11,633 bases of DNA from NCBI GenBank assembly GCA_003852805.1, contig RDDY01000258.1:1-11633 (forward strand), given 5' to 3'. The notes beneath the pieces are model-generated. The model was not told the origin of the DNA and ran no database searches. It saw only the letters and a list, made by a program, of their open reading frames with translations. A program made the translations under genes and the position numbers. This DNA comes from Chryseobacterium sp. (GTDB lineage: Bacteria > Bacteroidota > Bacteroidia > Flavobacteriales > Weeksellaceae). Positions 2,934 through 8,688 of the stretch are shown piece by piece; within the stretch, counting starts at the first letter, position 1, and the number at the start of each line of letters is the position of its first letter.

Positions 2934-3869
2934 ATGAACAGAATTACCGATTTGTTCCGGATAAAATATCCCATCATCCAAGGCGGAATGATCTGGCACA
3001 GCGGTTGGCGGCTGGCCTCGGCAGTGTCCGATTGCGGCGGTTTGGGTTTGATAGGCGCGGGCAGCATGTATCCTGATGTTTTGCGCGAGCATATACGGAA
3101 ATGCAAGGCCGCAACCGACAAACCTTTCGGCGTAAACGTGCCGATGCTGTATCCCAATTTGGAAGAGATCATCAACATTATTTTGCAAGAAGATGTGAAG
3201 ATTGTTTTCACATCGGCGGGCAACCCCAAGACTTATACATCACAACTGAAAGCAGAAGGCGTGCGCGTGGCGCATGTGGTATCGAGCGTAAAGTTTGCCG
3301 TTAAATGCCAAGAGGCAGGCGTAGATGCGGTGGTGGCAGAAGGCTTTGAGGCAGGCGGACACAACGGTCGCGAGGAAACCACAACCCTTTGCCTTATCCC
3401 CAACGTGCGCCGTTCCATCGATATACCGTTGATTGCGGCGGGCGGCATAGGCACAGGATCTCAGATGAAAGCAGCCATGCTTTTGGGCGCCGACGGAGTG
3501 CAAATCGGGTCGCGTTTTGCGGCCAGCGAAGAAGCCTCGGGACACGCCGATTGGAAGAATATGATTACGCAGCTAAGCGAAGGCAGTACACACCTGACCT
3601 TGAAAGAACTGGCGCCCGTACGCTTGGTCAAAAACAAATTCTACAACGAGATAGACGCCCTTTACGACAAAGGCCGCGATGCCGAAGCGTTGAAGTTGGC
3701 CTTGGGCCGCGCACGGGCCAAACGCGGCATGTTTGAAGGAGATTTGGAAGAAGGCGAACTGGAAATAGGACAGGTTTCGGCCCTTATTGATGAGGTTCTT
3801 CCTGTGGATAAAATCTTTGAAAAACTCATTCAAGAATACAACTCGTCAAAAGTGGCAGAATTATTGTAA
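2934..3869 (+). CDS. FMN-dependent nitronate monooxygenase / FabK-like enoyl reductase family protein
   Basis: This is a 311-residue TIM-barrel flavoprotein of the 2-nitropropane dioxygenase/FabK family. Visible landmarks are the N-terminal YPIIQGGM (12-19), the GGLGLIG strand near 35-41, the active-site motif EGFEAGGHNG with H143 in the position of the FabK catalytic histidine, the FMN-phosphate motif AAGGIGTG (168-175), and GADGVQIGSRF (185-195). Members either oxidise alkyl nitronates or act as the NADH-dependent enoyl-ACP reductase FabK of type II fatty-acid synthesis. The two activities share this fold and the EAGGH motif, and I cannot separate them from sequence alone. No fatty-acid genes are adjacent, which gives no support to FabK. 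The gene is preceded by two terminators and followed 37 bases later by a small lipoprotein. Confidence 0.85.
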   Translation: MNRITDLFRIKYPIIQGGMIWHSGWRLASAVSDCGGLGLIGAGSMYPDVLREHIRKCKAATDKPFGVNVPMLYPNLEEIINIILQEDVKIVFTSAGNPKTYTSQLKAEGVRVAHVVSSVKFAVKCQEAGVDAVVAEGFEAGGHNGREETTTLCLIPNVRRSIDIPLIAAGGIGTGSQMKAAMLLGADGVQIGSRFAASEEASGHADWKNMITQLSEGSTHLTLKELAPVRLVKNKFYNEIDALYDKGRDAEALKLALGRARAKRGMFEGDLEEGELEIGQVSALIDEVLPVDKIFEKLIQEYNSSKVAELL

Positions 3870-4071: not shown

Positions 4072-4092
4072 AAACGCAACGGCGCCAAAAAT

Positions 4093-4122
4093 AAAAGGAG
4101 CAATTTTAATTGCTCCTTTTTT
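4093..4122. terminator. Bidirectional intrinsic terminator between convergent genes
   Basis: GGAGCAATT (4097-4105) and AATTGCTCC (4108-4116) form a near-perfect palindrome. It is flanked by AAAA on the left (4093-4096) and six T residues on the right (4117-4122). It therefore works as a stem plus U-tract for both the plus-strand lipoprotein and the minus-strand rhodanese, whose stop codon is at 4124-4126. Confidence 0.85.
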
Positions 4123-6253: not shown

Positions 6254-6954
6254 ATTTCGCAACCTTCGGGACCGCAGGCACCTGCTTCTTCGTCGCCTTT
6301 CATCTTGAATTTCGGTTGTGCTTCTTGATAAGCTTGCTTCAGCGTTTCTACAAAGACCTGCACAGGCTGCGCGCCGGAAACGCCGTATTTTCGGTCAACC
6401 ACAAAAAACGGAACGCCCGATATGCCCAACCGTTGCGCCTCGTGGATGTCGGCTTTCACTTCCATGCTCAGGTCATCGGTTTCCAAAAATGCTTTGGCTT
6501 CGTCTTTGTTTAGGCCGATTTCCGCGGCCAAGTCGGCCAGCACGTTTATATCGCCTACATTCTTTCCGTCGGTAAAATGGGCTTTGAACAATGCTTCCTC
6601 GGCCTCGTTGCCTTTGCCTTCGTTCTGCGCATAATGGATAAAACGATGGGCGCGGAAGGTATTGACGGGTATGGCGCGATCCATTTGAAAATCGATCCCC
6701 GCCTGTGCGCCGCTCTGTTTCAGCTGCATCATCATGCCGTCCACCTGTTGCGCAGGCATACCTTTTTTCTGCAATAGATAATCGCGCGTTGTGGTTGTCT
6801 CACCGTCCATCGGCAATGTGGGGTCGAGTTGGAAGCTCTTCCATTCTACCTCGATCTCGTCTCCGAAATCGATTTGTTCCAATGCGCTTTCGAAATGTTT
6901 TTTGCCGATATAACAAAACGGACACATCACGTCCGACCATATTTCAATTTTCAT
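6250..6954 (-). CDS. FrnE/DsbA-family thioredoxin-fold oxidoreductase
   Basis: The start is set at the ATG at 6954, giving 234 residues beginning [17 protein letters not shown]. This places the first beta strand and the CPFC redox motif (C11, C14) at the very N terminus, as in FrnE and HCCA-isomerase-like DsbA proteins. An in-frame ATG at 7029 would add 25 residues with no family resemblance. The cis-proline loop is [11 protein letters not shown]. The C terminus ends in ACGPEGCEI, a C-x4-C pair (C227, C232) like the second redox motif described for Deinococcus FrnE. There is no signal peptide, so it is cytosolic, probably a thiol-disulfide isomerase or oxidoreductase with an unknown client. 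Its TAG stop overlaps the TAA of queG on the other strand. Confidence 0.9.
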
Positions 6955-7133
6955 AATCTGTTGTTTAAAATAGCTCCGCCTATCGACACCAACTATTGAG
7001 CCGAAGTGTCGCAAAGGCAATATTGGCAATCATAGATCGCTACGACAAGCGTGGAATACTTTCTTGTTTTTTTTGATCGATGCTTGTTTGTGTGGTTTTT
7101 ATTCCTACATTTGTCCAATAGCAATCGCAAATA
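6955..7133 (+). other. Divergent gap between the FrnE-like gene and the trp leader
   Basis: This stretch holds no gene I can support. Its right part (7084-7113) is the trp promoter. No full -7 match was found for the minus-strand FrnE-like gene, so its promoter is not identified. Confidence 0.5.
7084..7113 (+). promoter_or_regulatory. Promoter of the trp leader-trpB unit
   Basis: A -33 TTG at 7084-7086 and a -7 box TACATTTG at 7106-7113 (full match to TAnnTTTG) are separated by 19 bases, within the 17-23 range known for Bacteroidetes. Transcription would start near 7119, about 15 bases before the leader-peptide ATG. It is the only promoter in the window in which both elements are clear. Confidence 0.7.
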
Positions 7134-7220
7134 ATGCATCAATTTCTTAACAATAACTGGTGGTGGCCATCGTTTCTCGGCAGACGATGCGCACCGGTAT
7201 GTTGTGATGTGATGAATTGA
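7134..7220 (+). CDS. trp leader peptide (28 residues, three consecutive Trp codons)
   Basis: A short open frame starts about 15 bases after the predicted transcription start, reads MHQFLNNNWWWPSFLG and then RRCAPVCCDVMN, and stops with TGA at 7218-7220. The three Trp codons are TGG-TGG-TGG at 7158-7166. A WWW run in a tiny frame between a promoter and an attenuator upstream of a tryptophan synthase gene is the hallmark of ribosome-mediated attenuation. The peptide itself is presumably non-functional; the ribosome's position at the Trp codons is the signal. Trp-codon leaders upstream of trp genes in Bacteroidales are known from comparative genomics, which I recall as the 'Bacteroid-trp' RNA motif. 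No other start codon in this frame lies close upstream. Confidence 0.85.
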   Translation: MHQFLNNNWWWPSFLGRRCAPVCCDVMN

Positions 7221-7281
7221 TTCGCTTAAAATATTACGACAAAAAGGTACAGGCCGTCTGCAATTGCAGGCGGCCTTTTTT
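7158..7281 (+). promoter_or_regulatory. Tryptophan attenuator: alternative leader RNA structures
   Basis: Two exclusive folds can be drawn. The first hairpin pairs GGTG..CATCGT (7162-7173) with ACGATG..CACC (7184-7195) across a small internal mismatch; its 5' arm overlaps the second and third Trp codons. The antiterminator pairs GCAGACG (7180-7186) with CGTCTGC (7255-7261), seven contiguous bp. That removes the 5' arm of the terminator hairpin at 7251-7276. A ribosome stalled at 7158-7166 for lack of Trp-tRNA would cover the 5' arm of the first hairpin, freeing 7180-7186 to form the antiterminator, so trpB is transcribed. With ample Trp the first hairpin and the terminator form and transcription stops. 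The pairings are seen in the sequence; the switching is inferred from the classical attenuation model. Confidence 0.8.
7251..7281 (+). terminator. Attenuator terminator before trpB
   Basis: An 11-bp stem with one G-T wobble, AGGCCGTCTGC (7251-7261) with GCAGGCGGCCT (7266-7276), is closed by an AATT loop and followed by T at 7276-7281. It is strong, GC-rich and lies 27 bases before the trpB ATG. Confidence 0.9.
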
Positions 7282-7308
7282 ATTGTTTAATCTTTAACAC
7301 TTTATAGT

Positions 7309-8688
7309 ATGAACACAAAGAAGTTTTTTTTGAACGAGAACGAAATGCCACAATACTGGTATAACATTGTAGCGGATATGCCGGTAAAACCGTTGCCCCC
7401 GCTGCATCCCGGAACGCGCGAACCGATTACGCCCGACATGCTGTCGCCGTTGTTTCCCGATGAGCTTATTCGTCAAGAATTGACCGACGAGCGTTTTGTG
7501 AAAATCCCCGACGCTGTGCTGGAGAAATATAAGATTTACCGCCCATCGCCATTGATCCGTGCCACCGAGTTGGAAAAAGCTTTGAACACAGATTGCCGCA
7601 TTTATTACAAATATGAGGGCGGAAGCCCAAGCGGTTCTCACAAGCCCAATACGGCGATACCGCAGGCGTACTACAATGCACAGGCAGGCGTGAAGAAGAT
7701 TACGACGGAAACCGGTGCGGGACAGTGGGGCACGGCACTCAGCTTTGCCTGCGCGCAATACGGAATAGAATGCGAGGTGTATATGGTAAAGGCAAGCTAC
7801 GAGCAAAAGCCGTATCGTAAAATCATGATGAATACTTTCGGGGCAAAAGTACATCCGTCGCCGAGCGACAGGACGGAAGCCGGACGAAATTTCCTGGCGC
7901 ACAATCCTCAAACCGGCGGCAGTCTCGGCATGGCGATCTCCGAGGCCATTGAGATGGCGGTGCAAGATGAGCATACGAAGTATTCGTTGGGCTCGGTGCT
8001 GAACCATGTTTTGTTGCACCAAACCGTCATCGGTGAAGAAGCCATCAAGCAATTCGATCTTGCCCAAGACAGTCCCGATGTTATCATTGCCCCGCTCGGT
8101 GGCGGTTCCAACTTTGCGGGATTGGCGTTTCCGTTTTTGCGCGAAAAGTTGACAGGCGGCGGCTCACAGAGGTTTGTGGCAGTAGAACCGGCCTCGTGCC
8201 CGAAACTGACGAAAGGAGAATTTATGTACGACTTTGGCGATACGCAGGGCTATACGCCGTTGTTGCCTATGTATACGCTCGGTCACAATTTCGAGCCGGC
8301 GTCCATCCACGCAGGCGGACTGCGTTATCACGGCGCCAGCGTTCTCTGTTCGCAATTGCTGAAAGACAGATTGATAGAAGCGGCGTCCGTAGACCAGTTG
8401 GAATGCTTCGCGGCCGGCAGTATTTTCGCAAAGGCAGAAGGAATCATCCCGGCGCCCGAAAGTAACCATGCCATTGCCCAAGTCTTGAGAGAAGTGGAGC
8501 AGGCGCGCGAGGAAGGAAAGCAGAAGACCATTCTCTTCAACCTCAGCGGTCACGGGTTTGTGGATATGATGGCCTATGCCGATTATCACGACGGCAAATT
8601 GCAAGAACACGAACTGACACGCGCCGAGATACAAGCAAGCCTGAAAGAAATAAAAGAGTTGCAGCCCGCGGCTGTTTCCGAAATCTAA
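7309..8688 (+). CDS. trpB: TrpB2-type tryptophan synthase beta chain
   Basis: This PLP enzyme condenses indole (or indole delivered by TrpA) with L-serine to give tryptophan. At 459 residues with an extended N-terminal region (WYNIVADMPVKPLPP, IYRPSPLIRATELE), it belongs to the longer TrpB2 class rather than the roughly 400-residue TrpB1. Landmarks are GSPSGSHKPNTA with K112 as the PLP lysine, TETGAGQWG with E134 in the place of the catalytic glutamate, and the PLP-phosphate loop GGGSN (264-268). No trpA or other trp gene is adjacent. The gene is preceded by a full trp attenuator, which argues that it really serves tryptophan synthesis or indole salvage and not another beta-elimination reaction. 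It is followed by a hairpin and the proC promoter, so it is probably monocistronic. Confidence 0.92.
   Translation: MNTKKFFLNENEMPQYWYNIVADMPVKPLPPLHPGTREPITPDMLSPLFPDELIRQELTDERFVKIPDAVLEKYKIYRPSPLIRATELEKALNTDCRIYYKYEGGSPSGSHKPNTAIPQAYYNAQAGVKKITTETGAGQWGTALSFACAQYGIECEVYMVKASYEQKPYRKIMMNTFGAKVHPSPSDRTEAGRNFLAHNPQTGGSLGMAISEAIEMAVQDEHTKYSLGSVLNHVLLHQTVIGEEAIKQFDLAQDSPDVIIAPLGGGSNFAGLAFPFLREKLTGGGSQRFVAVEPASCPKLTKGEFMYDFGDTQGYTPLLPMYTLGHNFEPASIHAGGLRYHGASVLCSQLLKDRLIEAASVDQLECFAAGSIFAKAEGIIPAPESNHAIAQVLREVEQAREEGKQKTILFNLSGHGFVDMMAYADYHDGKLQEHELTRAEIQASLKEIKELQPAAVSEI

Follow-up and report, generated by a model that had tools for sequence, protein, structure and literature searches.

What orphan TrpB2 proteins do is an unsettled matter, and a leader with Trp codons in front of such a gene tells what the cell would measure when making the enzyme. 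One such gene lies in the window analysed here, the whole stretch of 11,633 nucleotides from a Chryseobacterium sp., in which the leader occupies the interval between trpB2 and a DsbA-like gene on the opposite strand. A preliminary description of this DNA had interpreted the leader as a Trp attenuator controlling a lone trpB2, and had proposed that the enzyme works in Trp supply, perhaps for indole salvage. Our analyses support the first proposal, since relatives conserve the Trp codons as well as the alternative helices and the motif of the promoter, and the second through the absence of TrpA from most related genomes carrying trpB2. We hold it to be likely that ribosome-mediated Trp attenuation operates here and that the attenuated TrpB2 serves Trp supply, probably from salvaged indole; as far as sequence evidence goes, attenuation of trpB2 is well supported, and salvaged indole is the Trp source that we infer.

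The class of the enzyme was established from profile scores. The protein lies above the curated cut-offs of the TrpB2 models (706 bits against NF009057, cut-off 366; 613 bits against TIGR01415, cut-off 519) and below that of the TrpB1 model TIGR00263 trpB (153 bits, cut-off 392), and the best-scoring solved chains were 6hul_B, 4qys_B and 6hte_B. The parts of the locus are collected in Table 1.

Table 1. Features of the trpB2 locus in the window and the evidence for each of them.
Feature	Position	Strand	Evidence
Promoter-like pair	TTGTTTG 7084-7090 (-33 element); TAnnTTTG as TACATTTG 7106-7113	+	Sequence
Leader peptide ORF, MHQFLNNNWWWPSFLGRRCAPVCCDVMN	7134-7220	+	28 codons, WWW at codons 9-11
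Control codons, TGG x3 in tandem	7158-7166	+	Invariant in 8/8 aligned leaders
1:2 hairpin	7168-7175/7182-7189	+	Folding; 59/64 cells paired in relatives
Antiterminator 5' arm (region 2), GCAGACG	7180-7186	+	54/56 cells paired; one pair GC/AU/UA
Antiterminator inner stem	7193-7195/7246-7248 and 7200-7210/7231-7241 (11 bp)	+	Folding; relatives
Intrinsic terminator	Arms 7251-7261/7266-7276, T6 7276-7281	+	11 pairs, one G-U; terminator scan; 83/88 cells paired
Antiterminator 3' arm (region 3), CGTCTGC	7255-7261	+	Lies within terminator 5' arm
trpB2, TrpB-like PLP enzyme, 459 aa	7309-8688	+	Profile scores

The leader peptide with its TGG-TGG-TGG, the antiterminator, whose regions 2 and 3 are perfect complements over 7 bp, and the terminator with its T-run were all recovered nearly base for base as first described, while the inner stem of the antiterminator is a feature that the preliminary description did not contain. 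No ORF with WWW arose in 3000 shuffles of the 400 nt upstream of trpB2. A terminator scan of positions 6950-7320 returned two sites, including 7251-7281, against a shuffle mean of 0.4, and the RNA 7136-7281 folded at -53 kcal/mol (z -4.98), with none of 200 shuffles equally good. An Rfam match to RcsR1 at the terminator (26 bits, cut-off 60) was rejected as a chance terminator match.

The conservation of this arrangement was assessed in 83 trpB2 loci, after leaving out six duplicates, two loci whose matches start inside the gene and one with its upstream region cut. In the 400 nt before trpB2, 16 of the 83 loci have a short ORF with WWW, which none of 1660 shuffles produced, and 29 of the loci have a short ORF that begins with ATG and contains W-W or W-x-W, as compared with 34 of the 1660 shuffles; two of the 29 (L072 and L074) are not leader-like, and three real leaders (L006, L088 and L104) fall outside the rule. 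Both elements of the proposed promoter are present in the window, where a generic sigma-70 scan of the leader region found no match. TAnnTTTG, a Bacteroidetes-specific promoter sequence (PMC6414381), precedes the leader start by no more than 45 nt in 22 of 29 leaders examined, as against 9 of 396 background windows from the same loci, L063 having been omitted from this count because of too little upstream sequence.

The window's leader was then aligned with those of its seven nearest relatives. Cultured relatives that share the arrangement are Chryseobacterium koreense (L031) and Chryseobacterium sp. R2A-55 (L103). All eight rows retain WWW, preceded by NNN or NTN, together with regions 2, 3 and 4, and region 3 reads CGTCTG without exception, which would be expected of one strand common to two helices. 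Helices were controlled by shifting their partners by 1-3 columns, which leaves 27-59% paired (27-57% for 2:3 and 3:4), and by shuffling. Covariation, suggested earlier as a check, gave a divided answer: compensatory changes are clear in the terminator, with two-sided change in four pairs (reached by 2 of 500 shuffles), but weak in the antiterminator, where the single pair with a two-sided change was matched by 408 of the 500 shuffles and is thus no evidence by itself, such changes being too few alone; the covariation score and percentage paired of the 2:3 helix were reached by 15 of 500 shuffles. The first hairpin (1:2; two pairs with two-sided change, reached by 59 of 500 shuffles), which had been described as overlapping the Trp codons, stands in the part just 3' of them, but its outer trunk across the codons (7161-7165/7192-7196) pairs in just 25 of 40 cells and is not conserved.

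The stretch of RNA that a stalled ribosome would approximately leave free, beginning 12 nt past the last Trp codon and ending with region 3, was folded by itself, and the 2:3 helix was in the minimum-energy structure of all eight rows, with z between -1.95 and -3.99 (Stouffer z -8.1, or -7.5 without the near-duplicate L103). An inner stem lies within the 2:3 loop in each of them, differing in sequence and keeping its shape, and it could serve to bring regions 2 and 3 together. When region 4 is included in the window's RNA, the 3:4 terminator replaces 2:3 in the folding and the inner stem persists. Sequence and conservation thus give tandem Trp codons in a short ORF and an intrinsic terminator before the first gene, while folding and conservation give an antiterminator that excludes the terminator and is favoured with a ribosome on the control codons. 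That these elements could be a chance product or a vestige, namely a Trp-rich ORF and a terminator devoid of any present regulatory role, is highly improbable, given on the one hand the complete absence of WWW ORFs from the 1660 shuffles and on the other the retention in relatives of both the promoter motif and the alternative helices.

A leader of this kind might also work otherwise, through control at the level of translation, through Rho-dependent termination or through arrest of a nascent peptide that senses free Trp. We regard this as quite unlikely for the window, which shares with all seven aligned relatives the terminator, the T-run and the competing antiterminator; it draws on the recurrence of the peptide context NNWWW or NKNWWW in both trpB2 and trp-operon leaders, and on eight Bacteroidales loci (L080, L084, L086, L089, L090, L092, L093 and L095) in which the scan found no terminator with a T-run, a scan that missed visible ones in L005, L033 and L091. 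The trpB2 leaders of these eight loci carry WSWWWP, WAWGWWR and similar peptides, most of them with a GAGC...GCTC-like hairpin after the ORF, as judged by eye, and their control may be translational or Rho-dependent.

The relationship of the window's leader to the Bacteroid-trp RNA (Rfam RF01692; Weinberg 2010, PMC2864571) was examined next. The Rfam search that had been recommended gave no support: RF01692 (gathering score 49 bits) matched the window neither at E 1 nor at E 10, the latter with 221 bases as the query, and it matched nothing in the window's assembly. Of 120 family genomes, 51 gave a match to the same model at E 1, with 21 over the cut-off, and twelve inspected matches were WWW leaders, mostly with NNWWW. 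At E 1 it found no match in five trpB2 leader loci (L128, L129 and L132-L134) nor in three of three trpE leader loci (L135, L137 and L138); since the trpE leaders were missed too, its failure does not in itself set the window's leader apart.

A covariance model, R1, was built from the eight aligned trpB2 leaders (147 positions as against 131 in RF01692). It matched 12 of 12 leaders found by RF01692, at 34-51 bits, and in 320 family genomes gave seven matches above 100 bits, each of them followed by trpB2; five are training rows and two are new (in genomes G674 and G686). Its next eight matches (at most 60 bits) precede a TrpE-like gene, five by profile and three by eye, the profile check having TIGR00564 as the best model on 400-aa pieces scoring below the full-length cut-off. 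R1 also gave weak matches outside leaders, for instance in L050 and on the reverse strand of L085, and at E 0.01 gave some match in 202 of the 320 genomes, 15 of these matches being the ones examined. These results mark the trpB2 leaders as a tight group, akin to trp-operon leaders in plan and partly in sequence. Both kinds come from Bacteroidetes and share WWW in an NNWWW context and a terminator; unlike RF01692, the trpB2 leader model is longer, has an antiterminator with an inner stem and precedes a lone trpB2. The window's leader may be a divergent relative of the Bacteroid-trp RNA rather than a separate kind. As a separate observation, NNWWW or NKNWWW occurs in most trp-operon leaders (among L110-L121 and L135-L142) and in the window-type trpB2 leaders; its Asn codons show synonymous changes, and the context may be more than a passive run of codons.

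The remainder of the Trp pathway was sought in genomes with trpB2. Searches at E 1e-100 recovered trpB2 from 9 of 320 genomes of the family and from 9 of 395 of the order, with three (the window's own assembly G000, G014 and G085) common to both sets, and TrpA was absent from seven of the nine family genomes, including the one-contig G686. A search for trpA and a second trpB, as had been advised, found neither TrpA nor TrpB1, TrpC or TrpD in the window's assembly, an absence that is soft in an assembly 93% complete, of which 12 of 32 sampled contigs (all those under 3 kb) read as N. The same four proteins were not found in the relatives G014, G069, G085 and G086, and TrpA, the sole gene searched there, was not found in G674 and G686. 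Single absences are soft, many of these assemblies being MAGs and the contig sets omitting anything below 3 kb, and since trp genes elsewhere are mostly clustered, one missing stretch could hide every trp gene of the window's assembly; the argument is carried by the one-contig G686 (TrpA only) and by G014, G085, G086 and G674 (TrpA only), which are 98-99% complete.

Across 62 genomes with trpB2, leader-bearing genomes lacked the trp genes searched in 25 cases and had trp genes in 7, whereas leader-less genomes lacked them in 4 cases and had them in 26 (Fisher 2.5e-7, on counts that are not phylogenetically independent). Leader-less genomes were a sample of 28 of 54 leader-less or unreadable loci. 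The pathway was scored from TrpA, TrpB1, TrpC and TrpD in 56 of the 62 genomes, leaving out TrpE and TrpF, from TrpA and TrpD for L123-L126, and from TrpA alone for L128 and L129. L088 and L104, leader-less in the 400-nt scan, were scored as leader-bearing after a 1000-nt scan, and L006 (TTG start, WRW) was counted as a leader by eye; L070 and L072 entered the count a single time, under L122 and L123, and L127, from genome G189, where neither TrpA nor TrpD matched, was left out with its upstream region cut. The genome of L034 was scored as lacking the pathway, with a TrpA match of 27.3 bits (cut-off 27) that covers 56 of 259 positions only, and G123 as having it, its TrpB1 running off a contig and TrpC and TrpD being present. 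Exceptions to the rule include L070/L122 (Schleiferia thermophila), L072/L123 (Thermaurantimonas aggregans) and L071, which have no recognised leader and whose genomes gave no TrpA or TrpD above the cut-off. A TrpB2 tree shows at least 6 changes in the leader state and 12 in that of the pathway. Supported branches provided three independent contrasts, of which a mean of 2.6 pointed toward a leader with pathway loss and none in the opposite direction (sign test p 0.25). The contrasts lean toward an association of the leader with pathway loss, are not significant and are too few to decide.

The origin of the window itself was also considered. Contamination is unsupported in a light test: the window's QueG finds relatives such as Riemerella and Chryseobacterium at about 75%, and the tetranucleotide correlation of the window was 0.72-0.91 with the eight readable contigs of its assembly, with two other family genomes reaching 0.69. 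In the window's leader group, no conserved cluster with a window gene besides trpB2 was found among the neighbours of trpB2. Neighbours in this group included a monomeric isocitrate dehydrogenase upstream in six loci (its family checked in L103 alone), a 93-104-aa protein in three loci and a 274-aa protein in three. In four other loci (L083, L094, L096 and L101), trpB2 with its leader lies downstream of aromatic amino acid genes, among them AroA (over the cut-off) and a DAHP-synthase-like protein (under it) in L083 and a prephenate dehydrogenase (over the cut-off) in L101, those of L094 and L096 being assigned by similarity. Elsewhere in the window, the + strand gene at 2934-3869 encodes a relative of FabK-like enoyl-ACP reductases, scoring 299.6 bits against a FabK cut-off of 453.1, and, being below that cut-off, its product is perhaps another flavoprotein. 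A hairpin at 4089-4121, flanked by A and T tails, is likely a bidirectional terminator, and Rfam matches there to the plastid psbA 3'UTR were far under the cut-off.

The chemistry of TrpB2 is the point at which a different explanation has to be weighed, namely that the attenuator is real and TrpB2 performs another reaction, for example on serine or phosphoserine, within a general response to Trp starvation. A serine deaminase role was once proposed for TrpB2, and for the lone trpB2o of Pyrococcus horikoshii another function was said not yet to have been identified, but the deaminase activity measured for TrpB2o was called poor (PMC1854888). The separation of TrpB2 from TrpB1 by profile scores and the seven leader-bearing genomes that also carry trp-pathway genes are compatible with such a role; however, the use of Trp codons in the control points to Trp as the product, other TrpB2 enzymes are described as Trp synthases with high indole affinity that use O-phosphoserine (PMC11917138, citing Hettwer and Sterner 2002, Busch 2014), and TrpB2 is said to participate in the indole salvage of Thermococcus kodakarensis (PMC11085991, citing Hiyama 2014). 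We consider another reaction unlikely. The lack of TrpA and TrpC, together with these statements on other TrpB2 enzymes, leads us to infer indole as the substrate, and the cell would need an external supply of it, because the other trp enzymes searched were not found in most such genomes.

The attenuation and indole salvage that we favour would proceed as follows. With charged tRNA-Trp plentiful, the ribosome would clear all three Trp codons, no 2:3 antiterminator would form, and the 11-bp terminator would halt RNA polymerase 27 nt before trpB2. With tRNA-Trp uncharged, the ribosome would stall at TGG-TGG-TGG and open the 1:2 hairpin, region 2 would pair with region 3 atop the inner stem, and polymerase would read through into trpB2, whose putative reaction is the conversion of indole to Trp with serine or O-phosphoserine. 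Stalling, termination, the reaction of TrpB2 and the source of its indole are thus steps predicted from the locus and its relatives.

Individual parts of this arrangement have counterparts. Unlike the E. coli trp attenuator, the one described here precedes a single gene, and its 2:3 helix encloses a large inner stem. The two are alike in their control codons and in the logic of 1:2, 2:3 and 3:4 pairing (outlined in PMC6414381). In the Trp auxotroph Chlamydia trachomatis, a leader with Trp codons is likewise annotated upstream of a salvage synthase, in trpRBA, where trpB is accompanied by trpA and the repressors are TrpR and YtgR, whereas TrpB2 stands alone in the window with no TrpA found; attenuation of trpRBA is said to want robust experimental evidence (PMC6504234, citing Merino and Yanofsky 2005). 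Orphan trpB2o genes resemble that of the window in encoding TrpB2 outside operons, P. horikoshii carrying a lone trpB2o and none of the other trp genes, but the passages of PMC1854888 that describe them mention no leader, while the window's gene has one with Trp codons. The Corynebacterium diphtheriae trpB2A genes have a Trp-codon attenuator before a gene named trpB2, which is followed there by trpA (PMC1262725). Gut strains with TrpA and TrpB alone have been classed as users of indole precursors (PMC9026213), and a transcriptome of F. psychrophilum suggested leader-peptide attenuation upstream of amino-acid operons (PMC9723704). In a literature search that covered few subscription papers, trpB2, leader peptide and attenuation occurred together only in PMC1262725 among the matches listed, and trpB2 together with Bacteroidetes in none of those listed.

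The type of regulation described here is well known, and its attachment to an orphan TrpB2, in genomes where the pathway is not found, makes an old question testable. R1 provides a searchable model for a form of leader that RF01692 misses. For the Bacteroidota as a whole, we lean slightly toward a reading in which orphan TrpB2 is a Trp-regulated indole-salvage enzyme, the only Trp-forming enzyme of lineages that lost the trp operon, under an attenuator of its own that Rfam misses. If true, this would give orphan trpB2 genes a function, and it predicts that the bacteria bearing such leaders live partly on the indole of their neighbours.
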